In this document: in pieces, positions 14,610 to 62,641 of the stretch
How positions within the stretch are numbered: position 1 is the stretch's first letter
Layout: each line of letters begins with the position of its first letter
Program-made: the position numbers and the translations under genes
NCBI RefSeq assembly: GCF_040515995.1
Contig: NZ_CP159485.1
Span: 2,356,001 to 2,420,000 of the forward strand
Reading direction: 5' to 3'
DNA length: 64,000 nt
Origin: Proteinivorax hydrogeniformans
GTDB lineage: Bacteria; Bacillota; Proteinivoracia; Proteinivoracales; Proteinivoracaceae
Notes under the pieces: model-generated
What the model was told of the DNA's origin: nothing
Database searches by the model: none
What the model saw: the letters and a program-made list of their open reading frames with translations, nothing else

Positions 14610-15255
14610 GTGCGCCCAGCATGTGCGTTAACTTGGCGGTGAAAGTCCGCTGTGGACTTGGTAGTGGGAACCACTAGTCGAAGGCAAGGGTATCCACCGT
14701 GAGGTGGAATCTGAAGGAAGCCCTAGGCAAAATCCCGGTCTGAGGAACACAAACCACATATAAGGCTTGCTTAGGACGGACGAGTTTGCATAACAAAACA
14801 AAGTCCAACACTACCCGAATCCTAAGGAGTAAATGTGGCAGATATATGGGAGGAAGGTTAACGTACTTACCTGGGGAGGTCTGAGTGGCATGCTACTGCA
14901 TGAGAATGGAATTTTCTCTCTTAGTAACCTATATCGAGAGATATAGCTGAACACTCAGAAGTCAGTTCAAGTCATAGTACCGCTTAAACCTATCGAAAGA
15001 TAAGGCTAGGGAAGGACTTGACGATAATTAAATAATAGCTATTAAGAAGGCCCCTCATGTTGATAGCAGCCAACCCTTTTGGGACTACCTAACTGAGAAT
15101 AGAGTGGAACTCGAAGGTAAATGTTAGGAGTGCTTAGTGAAACCTACGCTTAATACATGACAGAGTTCAATTATTTAATTATCGAACCGCTGTGTACGGG
15201 TCCGTATGCATGGTGGTGTGAGAGGACGGCGGTTAGTCACCGCCTCCTACTCGAT
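14610..15255 (+). mobile_element. Group IIC intron lacking its reverse transcriptase
   Basis: The 646-base element begins GTGCGCCCAGCATG and ends CTCCTACTCGAT. Inside are blocks I recognise from the Oceanobacillus iheyensis group IIC ribozyme: 'GGAATCTGAAGGAAGC', 'CGGTCTGAGGAACAC', 'GAGTTTGCATAACAAAACAA' and 'GGGGAGGTCTG'. Domain V starts at 'GAACCGCTGTGTACGG' (~15184) and domain VI is the GGCGGT-TAGTC-ACCGCC hairpin. Domain IV holds only short stem sequence, no reverse transcriptase, so mobility would need an enzyme in trans. The borders are fixed by the intron-free sequence at 941-955. It sits right behind a terminator. Confidence 0.9.
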
Positions 15256-49874: not shown

Positions 49875-49904
49875 ATTATACACTTAATTCGTAAAAGTAG
49901 TCAA
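49875..49904 (-). promoter_or_regulatory. Promoter of the abiF-associated RNA (TTGACT-N18-TATAAT)
   Basis: -35 TTGACT (49904-49899), 18 bases, -10 TATAAT (49880-49875). It lies within the last codons of abiF, and the -10 box overlaps the abiF stop codon (49878-49876). This gives the RNA its own transcript in the same direction. Confidence 0.75.
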
Positions 49905-50808
49905 TAACTTTTTTAGCGAAATCATAGTGAGATATTAATAATTGGTTTTTGTTAAAGTAGGATTTGTTACGAGTCATCCTATCATCTGTAAATTCCTTAA
50001 GCTCTAACATAGTGATTTCTCTTATTCTCTTACTAGTTATGATATTGTTGAATACATACAGGGTTACCACAAAGTCATGCATTACTGGATTTCTCATTCT
50101 GTTCTTTCTGGCTTCTCTCCCAACGCCATCTATCTTTGTGATATAATGTTTTATTTTCTCATTAGGTCTGATCTGATAGTTATAAGGTGTTCTCAAACTA
50201 TTTAATAGACAGCTGTTATGAGCTGCTGCATTTCTTAATAACCTTACAGACCAAAGAAGTTTCTCCACAGATCCTTTAGTATTGTATTTTCTATAATATA
50301 TGTGATACAACTTTGTAAAATCGTTAAAGCTTAAAACTTCAACTATATTCCAAATAGCGAATTCGTCTTTATATTTTCTCACCAAGTCTGAAGATGCAGA
50401 GTTCTTGCTCTTTACACTTATATTATCTCTTATGTACGGATATTTGGTAAAAAGCTCTTCTAAGATGCTGTAGCCATCTTCATTCTCATTCGCCTGAAAG
50501 TCTCTTAATAGTTGTGTCTTTAGAAAGTGTTCAATATCTAAAGTCATCTTCAAAATAACCCTTCTAAAATACATATCTATTTTTGACAGCTCGACAAGGT
50601 ATGCAAACTCTAGGTTTACATATTTACCAGCATTCTCACCGCCTTTATATTTTTCGTAATTTTTAGCGTAGGATTTAATTTTAAAATAATACGTGTTCTC
50701 TCTTAAGAATTGCTTTGCTTCTTCTTCATCGATGATGTTAAATTTAATACCATTTATATTTTTCATATGTTCTATTTGTCCATCTACCGTTAATTTTTCT
50801 TTTCTCAT
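49876..50808 (-). CDS. abiF: AbiF/AbiD-type abortive infection protein (HEPN RNase-like)
   Basis: The 310-residue Abi_2-family protein has N-terminal 'KNINGIKFNIIDEEEAKQFL' and 'YFKIKSYAKNYEKYKGGENA'. The HEPN-type motif RNAAAH (Arg192 to His197, R-x4-H) lies in 'WSVRLLRNAAAHNSCLLN'. Family members are toxins that stop growth of phage-infected cells; AbiF-RNA pairs have been proposed as relatives of the ancestors of Cas13. ATG at 50808 is preceded by AGGGGAG. A TATAAT box lies ~30 bases upstream with a weak -35. The ncRNA promoter sits in its 3' end. It is probably cargo protecting the lysogen. Confidence 0.88.
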   Translation of the reverse strand: MRKEKLTVDGQIEHMKNINGIKFNIIDEEEAKQFLRENTYYFKIKSYAKNYEKYKGGENAGKYVNLEFAYLVELSKIDMYFRRVILKMTLDIEHFLKTQLLRDFQANENEDGYSILEELFTKYPYIRDNISVKSKNSASSDLVRKYKDEFAIWNIVEVLSFNDFTKLYHIYYRKYNTKGSVEKLLWSVRLLRNAAAHNSCLLNSLRTPYNYQIRPNEKIKHYITKIDGVGREARKNRMRNPVMHDFVVTLYVFNNIITSKRIREITMLELKEFTDDRMTRNKSYFNKNQLLISHYDFAKKVIDYFYELSV

Positions 50809-56540: not shown

Positions 56541-57329
56541 TTACGCCGACCTCTCCCTTTCCACCAGTGGCAGCAGATTTCGCTCATTTTTGAGTAAATC
56601 GTAGAGAAACAGTCTCCCTTTCTGTGTCCAGTAGGTGTGCATCTTATTTCTATTCGCATCGATGGCGTGGGTCTTAGACTGGGTATATCCCATATCTGCA
56701 TAGTGCTGATACAGTAGCCATGTGCCATGCATCTTGTACTGGACCCCCAGCTCATGTAGTAACTTGTTTAAAGCTCTCCCACTCATGCCGTAATCTTTAG
56801 CAATCACCGTAATGGGAACTACCGACTTGTTTTGAAGAATAAGATCATAGTAGCTGGCCTTTGGCTTCAGCTCTCCAATCATCTGCCTATTCTTTGCATT
56901 TTCAAGTTCCAGTTCTTTTGCTTTTGCCTTGGCTTCCTTGTACTCAGTGAATATCTTGATGCCAAGGTCAGGATTTTTAAGAATATCATCCAACAGCTTG
57001 TCCGCCATGTACACCCCGTGCTTTCTGATATCAGGTAGTACTTCATCAAAGATCCAACGTTCAAATCGCTCTGCTTCAGGAAGTTTAGATTTTACAATTA
57101 AGCGGTATAGATCGCCTTCAGGTATGAACTTGATTTCCTGCTCGCCGCCACTTGTAGGGACTCGGTGTTTTACCGACCCCTTTGTATGTCTGTTTACAGC
57201 ATCATAAGGATCCACATAACCTAAAATTTTGGCGCACTCTGTTGCAGGGAAGTACTCCTTCCCATTTATGACTAATACCCCTATTTTCCCGAACTCTGTA
57301 TTGTTAAAAGTTTTCATTTCCTTCATCAC
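56541..57329 (-). CDS. Phage antirepressor (BRO-N plus KilAC)
   Basis: The 262-residue protein has a BRO-N domain (~10-110: 'KEYFPATECAKILGYVDPYD', 'RFERWIFDEVLPDIRKHGVY'), a coiled-coil linker, and a KilAC DNA-binding domain ('VVPITVIAKDYGMSGRALNK', 'YQHYADMGYTQSKTHAIDAN'). It usually opposes the phage repressor. It stands inside the replication operon here, not next to a repressor. Confidence 0.93.
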   Translation of the reverse strand: MMKEMKTFNNTEFGKIGVLVINGKEYFPATECAKILGYVDPYDAVNRHTKGSVKHRVPTSGGEQEIKFIPEGDLYRLIVKSKLPEAERFERWIFDEVLPDIRKHGVYMADKLLDDILKNPDLGIKIFTEYKEAKAKAKELELENAKNRQMIGELKPKASYYDLILQNKSVVPITVIAKDYGMSGRALNKLLHELGVQYKMHGTWLLYQHYADMGYTQSKTHAIDANRNKMHTYWTQKGRLFLYDLLKNERNLLPLVERERSA

Positions 57330-61565: not shown

Positions 61566-62060
61566 TTATGAAAAGTTTTTTCTTAATTTTGCATGGATCT
61601 TTTTTAGCCGTTTCCGGATTGCCGCTTCCGTTACGCCTTCTTCAGCGGCGATGTCTGTGTTGGAACGCTTGTCCATATATACTTTCTTAAACAGTTCTTT
61701 CTGCTGCGGTAAAAGACACTCCATAGCTTGAGTAAGTTTACCCAGCATTTCTTGATGTTCGCCTTCTTCCTCCGCTTCAATATAAATGCTCTCAGGGTTT
61801 AAACTTTCATCTGCTAGGTATTTGTTGCGATCATCTACTGATTCATTTTCTTTGTCTTTGTAGGCATCCAGATGGGTAGTAACTCTGTAATTATAGCGAC
61901 GCTGCTTGTCCACTTCATTGTCGTCAATAGAATGAAGAAGTTCGATGTCTGCTTCGGTAACTCCATTTTCCCCTGGAGTAATAACGATTTGTCCCCCTTC
62001 AGCGGGATAATAGATGTAATTTGTTCTCTTCTTTTGGCTTGTTTTGTACTTTTTTAACAT
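61566..62060 (-). CDS. Phage sigma-70-like regulator
   Basis: ATG at 62060 (MLKKYKTSQKKRTNYIYYPA) has GGGTG upstream; 164 residues. The C-terminal region-4-like helix-turn-helix is 'MECLLPQQKELFKKVYMDKR', 'SNTDIAAEEGVTEAAIRKRL' and 'KKIHAKLRKNFS'. The acidic middle lacks a clear region 2, so it may be an activator rather than a full sigma factor. A strongly structured RNA with a terminator lies directly upstream. Confidence 0.85.
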   Translation of the reverse strand: MLKKYKTSQKKRTNYIYYPAEGGQIVITPGENGVTEADIELLHSIDDNEVDKQRRYNYRVTTHLDAYKDKENESVDDRNKYLADESLNPESIYIEAEEEGEHQEMLGKLTQAMECLLPQQKELFKKVYMDKRSNTDIAAEEGVTEAAIRKRLKKIHAKLRKNFS

Positions 62061-62101
62061 GTTTTGCACCCTTTCCGTCCTGCATTGGACGGCAGAATGC
62101 A

Positions 62102-62255
62102 AAAAGAGTCTGTGGTGAAGATGTCCACAGACTCCGCTTGTCCTAAAAATGGGCGCACGAAATCACGGTGGGTGCATCTCCACTCCTAGCAAGGCTTTAA
62201 TACCATGCTCAGAAGTCTTATGCATCCCGCCGTCCGTATGCGCACTAGGACATTG
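62102..62255 (-). ncRNA. Structured RNA with terminator upstream of the sigma-like gene
   Basis: The minus strand from ~62251 forms one long interrupted stem: GTCCTA/TAGGAC outside (62251-62246 with 62146-62141), then GCGCA/TGCGC, CGG/CCG, GGG/CCC, TGCAT/ATGCA, ACTTCT/AGGAGT and AGCATGG/CCTTGCT around an A/T loop. A separate perfect hairpin AGTCTGTGG/CCACAGACT with TTTTT (62134-62102) follows as terminator. No credible coding frame fits. It could be an sRNA or an attenuator of the sigma-like gene. Confidence 0.6.
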
Positions 62256-62300
62256 AGATATTATTTAGAAAGCAACACTGCTTATCTATAACTAAAGTAA

Positions 62301-62350
62301 CACGGATTTTTTTATAAAAATGGACATGCCATGTCCCGTCAAAATCCGTG
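62301..62350. repeat. Nested inverted repeats in the early regulatory gap
   Basis: CACGGATTTT (62301-62310) pairs with AAAATCCGTG (62341-62350) and encloses GGACAT-GCC-ATGTCC (62322-62336). A related GGACA-N5-TGTCC lies at 63606-63620. It may be an operator or hairpin; nothing more can be said. Confidence 0.45.
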
Positions 62351-62355
62351 CAAAT

Positions 62356-62417
62356 AAAAAAGCCGGAGTTATCCTTTTTCAGCCTTTATGGCTTACTTAG
62401 ATAACTCCGGCTTTTTG
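62356..62417. terminator. Bidirectional terminator between repressor and sigma regions
   Basis: A 13-bp stem AGCCGGAGTTATC (62361-62373) / GATAACTCCGGCT (62400-62412), with A-run before and T-run after, separates the regulatory genes from the early operon. Confidence 0.8.
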
Positions 62418-62457
62418 CTCCTCGATTGGTTACGGGGCAGATTGCGGTAGTTTCTGT

Positions 62458-62641
62458 TTACTTATTTGCTGCCCTTGCAGCTTTTACCTGATGTACAACA
62501 TCCTCCCAAGGAATTGTCACAAACTTATTTTTACTGATTTTCTGTTCGAGATAGACTTTTTCACCATCAACGATAACATCGCAGAAACGTGGGGGAACTG
62601 TATTGGGGGTGTGAAGATTTCGTATGGGTTTTTTTTATCAT
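62458..62641 (-). pseudogene. Small phage gene interrupted at an A8 run
   Basis: ATG at 62641 follows GGAGGAAGG, a very good ribosome site. The first codons are ATG ATA then eight A. With seven A the frame would read MIKKPIRNLHTPNTVPPRFC, DVIVDGEKVYLEQKISKNKF and VTIPWEDVVHQVKAARAANK with a stop at 62458. The 184-base length is one base too long. Either a frameshift mutation, a sequencing error, or slippage at the A-run restores the ~60-residue protein. Confidence 0.6.

Follow-up and report, generated by a model that had tools for sequence, protein, structure and literature searches.

The DNA analysed here, referred to as the window, is a stretch of 64,000 nucleotides from Proteinivorax hydrogeniformans (NZ_CP159485.1, positions 2,356,001 to 2,420,000) that carries a prophage early operon on its minus strand. 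The first gene of the operon, which starts with ATG at 62060, encodes a sigma-70 region 4-like protein of 164 amino acids (61566–62060, minus strand; Pfam Sigma70_r4_2, E = 1.5e-7, above the cut-off), as anticipated by a first, sequence-only reading that had placed a phage sigma-like gene at this position. Further on, the operon encodes a DUF2800 protein, an Enc34-type ssDNA-binding protein, DNA polymerase A, an antirepressor with ANT and Bro-N domains (56541–57329) and a D5-type primase/helicase. A leader RNA of about 200 bases, also on the minus strand, adjoins the 5' side of the first gene. Its 5' start is the conserved AUCUCA at 62254–62259 and its 3' end is the start codon at 62060; these limits (62060–62259) follow from a family assembled with nhmmer and a covariance model, and from the rows of alignment A2.

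A small ORF lies 5' of the leader (62465–62641, minus strand) and has similar DNA in Ruminococcus phages (L005 and L006). Its reading frame seems to be shifted relative to its own ATG at an 8-T/A run (62629–62636), which could reflect a frameshift, phase variation or a sequencing error. Two strong inverted repeats separate this ORF from the leader (62302–62350 and 62358–62418), one of 48 bp with the centre GGACATGGCATGTCC and the other a hairpin with A/T runs on both sides, similar to a bidirectional terminator. The only Rfam matches in the window are two group II intron domains (14693–15017, plus strand; RF02001 and RF01998). A 310-amino-acid ORF elsewhere (49876–50808, minus strand) seems to resemble abortive-infection proteins of the Abi_2/AbiF type. 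An AbiF system that is encoded by a phage and regulated through RNA has been reported (PMC12373285).

Architecture and family of the leader RNA

Folding of positions 62095–62256 (minus strand) gave an energy of -70.5 kcal/mol, compared with -44.2 +/- 4.2 kcal/mol for 200 dinucleotide shuffles (z = -6.3; 0/200 as low), and a GUCCUA/UAGGAC helix (62246–62251 with 62140–62145) closes a long irregular stem. The structured RNA with a long stem of this closure that the sequence-only reading had proposed is thus confirmed. The fold proposed for 62102–62255 is real; the RNA itself, however, is encoded on the minus strand, is longer (62259 to 62060) and includes a third hairpin that had been missed.

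Three structures follow one another along the minus strand. The rod domain, closed by the helix just described, occupies 62140–62251 and contains two strands that recur below: A5 (GGACGGCGGGAUGCA, 62221–62235) on its 5' side, and K with the rod 3' strand (AGUGGAGAUG + CACCCACCGU, 62165–62184). The P2 hairpin (62106–62135) has 10 perfect pairs between its arms, GAGUCUGUGG and CCACAGACUC, and a loop of ACAUCUUCA, and is followed directly by five U residues at 62101–62105. A perfect 9-bp terminator hairpin with T5 had been described here; the hairpin and the U-tract are present, with 10 pairs rather than 9. In the third hairpin (62062–62105), the U-tract arm and the anti-SD strand S5 (UGCAUUCUGCCGUCC, 62087–62101) pair with GGACGGAAAGG and an A-run, burying the Shine-Dalgarno (SD) sequence GGAAAGG. 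A further short hairpin of variable sequence 5' of AUCUCA (62266–62288, minus strand) was seen by folding in most members of the family and is missing or weak in L084, L100, L155 and L156. Several segments, such as UUUC.UGCGC.CAUUUU, are conserved and unpaired; these invariant bases suggest a binding pocket, but tertiary folding alone could explain them.

Blastn finds the RNA at 88% identity in two phages, Erysipelothrix phage phi1605 and Streptococcus phage Javan630, and its conservation far exceeds that of its flanks. DNA patterns and profile searches of viral contigs and genomes yielded about 75 distinct copies, carried by phages and prophages whose hosts belong to several Bacillota orders, with copies in Clostridiales, Negativicutes, Erysipelotrichaceae, Lactobacillales and others. 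A covariance model, R1, detected the RNA in about 10 of 398 genomes sampled from the host phylum and added nine divergent members; these nine, which played no part in first spotting the A5:S5 and K:P2-loop pairings described below, served as held-out members. Two other R1 matches, L163 and L164 (E ~1e-3), were rejected as false from their gene context, read by eye: the former looks like an anthranilate-synthase leader, whereas the latter adjoins riboflavin-synthesis genes. A plasmid collection searched for the leader gave no match.

When relatives of the sigma-like protein were scanned, the RNA was found at nearly every locus having sufficient upstream DNA. Throughout the family its 3' end is the SD and AUG of the downstream gene. 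The downstream proteins fall into several types with unrelated N-termini, and most share a C-terminus resembling sigma-r4 that is weakly scored in some members; the protein of L097 has no Pfam match, and in L156 (1501–1701) the leader stands directly 5' of a gene read as rha-like, with no sigma-like gene in between. Conservation of the RNA exceeds that of the downstream gene and does not follow codons, whereas a codon-like pattern would have spoken against an RNA; the element is non-coding.

Three copies are irregular. In L108 (342–427), the leader is truncated after the 5' half of the rod by an insertion with a transposase-like ORF. L165 (1501–1682) has no P2, and its closing stem is lengthened to 13 bp (GAGCCUGAUUACG/CGUAAUCAGGCUC) and followed by UUUU. 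In L162 (1501–3209), the leader and the start of the sigma-like protein are, by eye, in frame with a sequence resembling 1-deoxyxylulose-5-phosphate synthase, a fusion that we read as a prophage remnant or an assembly join.

No family in Rfam 15, including C4, riboswitches and phage motifs, matched the leader in the window or at nine homologous loci at the gathering cut-off, and a permissive scan of the leader returned matches only at E > 1; the earlier reading had named no RNA class. The literature searched held no description of the element; supplements of RNA-motif surveys (e.g. PMC8040213) fell outside that scope, and an earlier unnamed prediction is therefore possible.

Covariation of two alternative folds

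Covariation in homologous prophages, proposed earlier as a check, was found for two folds. State 1 consists of the rod, P2 and the third hairpin that buries the SD. Among its pairs, 114 alignment cells had changed on both sides, compared with 50.3 in shuffled alignments (0/500), under a null that ignores phylogeny, and 80.6% of cells were paired, compared with 34–44% when the strands were slid. These counts are weaker in the L112 and L123 clades because MAFFT alignments misplace part of the rod 3' strand there. The U-tract serves as the 5' arm of this SD hairpin, and its preference for the cognate A-run arm beside the AUG was marked (P = 5e-5); this pairing survives loss of the U-tract itself, as UUUCUGCGUUCC/GGAACGCAGAAA in L007 and AUUAG/CUAAU in L112.

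In state 2, S5, which otherwise hides the SD, pairs with A5 over 15 contiguous base pairs. RNAalifold predicted A5:S5 without prior hint on alignments of 38 and 46 rows, giving a 15-bp helix on the latter. Covariation of A5:S5 amounted to 22 cells compared with 9.7 in shuffles (0/500), again under a null that ignores phylogeny, and 88.6% of cells were paired compared with 40–64% when slid; in the same test, two other measures, how many pairs covary and how many pair types occur, were not above shuffles. Among clade representatives, cognate duplexes outperformed swapped ones both for A5:S5 (P = 1e-4) and for K with the P2 loop (P = 5e-5), and over 17–18 representatives, with 18 for A5:S5, the cognate preference of the A5:S5 and K:P2-loop duplexes gave P = 1e-5. 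A5:S5 recurred in 9/9 held-out members (permutation P = 1.2e-4), and K:P2-loop pairing was likewise preferred (P = 1.3e-4, n = 8). The held-out A5:S5 pairs include very different sequences, such as GGCAAAGGAUACA/UGUAUCCUUUGCC in L160 and AGGGCCGGGA/UUCCGGCCCU; the pairing in L159 is UAGAAGUAC/GUACUUCUA. Pairing of A5 with S5 is poor in L061 and L097, and that of K with the loop in L156 and L158. Clades are few and the sequences within a clade related, a dependence that the held-out and swapped-pair tests lessen and do not remove. A weak pairing of AUCUCA with K (P = 0.03 among many tests) is not claimed.

State 1 is predicted to be the more stable fold in 38/38 sequences, which implies that state 2 needs help to form; nested energies place state 1 about 10 kcal/mol below state 2, with the K:P2 pairing left uncounted. 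Covariation of both folds supports two mutually exclusive structures in which the ribosome binding site would be hidden (OFF, state 1) or exposed (ON, state 2). That the RNA regulates the early operon, as the sequence-only reading had suggested, is strongly supported by this covariation, by its non-coding nature and by its position before different sigma-like genes. On the computed observations, namely a conserved family, two covarying folds, complementarity of K to the P2 loop, a palindrome (see below) and a place at the SD, we read the leader as a probable cis-acting, bistable, riboswitch-like translational switch of the phage early/replication operon, with odds of roughly three in four.

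The palindrome, and other readings of the leader

H1, detected with RNAalifold, is an inverted repeat at 62232–62251 (minus strand), GUCC/GGAC with GUCU/AGAC and GCCU/AGGC as variants, built around a palindrome, UGCGCA, at 62239–62244. Between GUCC and GGAC, 47/47 members and 23/23 distinct loop sequences have a perfect palindrome of 6 or more nucleotides, with six central tetramers (GCGC, GGCC, AGCU, UGCA, ACGU and UCGA); windows of the same size elsewhere are palindromic in 0–11%. The conserved feature is self-complementarity, not sequence. In the predicted folds, the palindrome is mostly paired in OFF and exposed in ON. H1 was rejected as a simple local hairpin: it is conserved, yet its cognate preference reached only P = 0.046. 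Other possible partners of its GUCC are the distal GGAC of the rod and the GGAC of the SD strand; RNAalifold on 46 rows gives the latter instead, as a candidate partner of GUCC in the ON state.

Retention of the palindrome suggests homodimerization of the leader, with two copies pairing. In the HIV-1 leader, a dimerization palindrome is hidden or exposed through pairing in which the AUG region takes part (PMC7357161). The phage leader resembles this arrangement of dimerization site and U5:AUG switch in having a palindrome whose exposure depends on the fold and an alternative fold that uses sequence on the start-codon side. The likeness is one of logic, without homology, between a viral genome leader and a phage mRNA that presumably serves gene control rather than genome packaging, and the dimer itself is putative. 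An extension of this idea, to which we give little credence, is that the leader is an RNA-only dosage sensor, in which kissing of palindromes would stabilize ON so that more of the early regulator is translated as transcript, and hence genome copy, number increases. If true, the leader would count its own transcripts in the service of lytic commitment.

The palindrome could also be a contact for a protein. A phage or host protein, such as the sigma-like product or a dimeric regulator at the palindromic repeat, might bind the rod or the palindrome and thereby set the state of the leader; the inverted repeat present in every member and the many conserved unpaired rod bases would suit such a reading, and A5 resembles the SD strand, as in autoregulation by target mimicry. 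The RNA precedes several unrelated sigma-like N-termini, however, and palindrome type does not track downstream protein type, which makes it unlikely that the downstream protein is the ligand. We regard a protein-binding leader as possible, if somewhat doubtful.

Transcription attenuation is a rather unlikely explanation. P2 and the U-tract would then end early transcripts unless the freed rod 3' strand paired with the P2 5' arm and loop, and the window offers a G+C-rich hairpin of 10 bp with U5, most of the main clade has U4–5, and complementarity of K does reach from the P2 loop into the P2 arms. However, this alternative pairing is predicted to be no clear winner over the 10-bp P2 stem, and the L007, L061, L059, L112 and L123 clades have a broken U-tract or none, while pairing with the A-run still covaries; the sequences UUUCUG, UUCUUG, AUUAG, UCCGAU and UAUUUG take its place in divergent clades. 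Because the U-tract is lost while its pairing on the AUG side covaries, the conserved roles of P2 are to offer a loop complementary to the rod and to stand next to the SD hairpin. The RNA's own terminator, plausible locally as first read, is thus at best a feature of some clades.

A small RNA, one of the roles suggested by the sequence-only reading, is conceivable. Release of the rod, with or without P2, as a small antisense RNA with P2 and S5 on other transcripts as its targets in trans, in the manner of c4, is improbable. In phage P1, an operon that includes c4, icd and ant is under the control of the C4 antisense RNA (PMC8198154), and the layout at the immI locus of P1, P7 and P22 resembles the one here: an upstream RNA with two segments complementary to ribosome-binding-site sequences, in an antirepressor early operon. 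A5 and K are complementary to two such sites on the same transcript, S5 and the P2 loop, and the operons hold an antirepressor or a Rha-like gene. The leader is, however, larger than c4, with another sequence and fold and a sigma-like first gene, and promoter-like sites near it occur at chance level only, so that no separate promoter stands out. As the leader has no C4 match and A5:S5 is predicted to free the SD, opposite in sign to C4 repression, we do not file it as c4.

A DNA-level element, whether operator or replication origin, with inverted repeats that merely resemble RNA is very improbable: the element sits 5' of replication genes and the palindrome of H1 might act as an operator for a dimer, but G-U pairs occur in nearly every covarying helix, the helices span the SD as far as the start codon, and one strand with two alternative partners makes sense only for RNA.

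A proposed translational switch

The translational switch that we favour would work as follows. During transcription the rod would fold first and P2 second, and S5 would then pair with the SD strand, leaving the first early gene, encoding a sigma-like regulator or rarely Rha, untranslated. Were the rod opened or left unstabilized, A5, as a mimic of the SD strand, would form a long helix with S5, the P2 loop could hold the rod 3' strand (K), and the 5' GUCC might clamp the GGAC immediately upstream of the SD, leaving GGAAAGG and the AUG free for translation. The exposed palindrome may stabilize this ON form through homodimerization or serve as the contact of a dimeric ligand. We infer the direction of control (rod as OFF), the co-transcriptional order of folding and dimerization; candidate triggers are a metabolite, a protein, an RNA dimer and the rate of transcription.

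Like translational riboswitches, the leader has a conserved upstream domain, one strand of which (A5) is also part of an expression platform hiding or exposing the SD, and the two mutually exclusive pairings, S5 with the SD strand and A5 with S5, covary by computation. It differs from them in its place in a phage early operon, its obligatory palindrome, its extra P2-loop pairing and its lack of an Rfam class, and because ligand binding is putative we do not file it as a riboswitch; a ligand sensor fits the modelled two-state anatomy. The cIII mRNA of phage lambda is also an early regulatory, bistable RNA, one fold of which occludes the ribosome binding site; its element is much smaller, lies within the coding start and has neither a conserved upstream domain nor a palindrome.

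Few conserved two-state leader RNAs are known from phages. Functional RNA oligomers are reported to be seldom seen in nature (PMC7357161). The exchange of two strands and the palindrome allow direct and simple tests. The leader appears to represent an undescribed and widespread class of regulatory RNA that controls the first early gene in many temperate phages of Bacillota, and, should the switch prove real, the signal behind it would give the lysis–lysogeny decision a new input.
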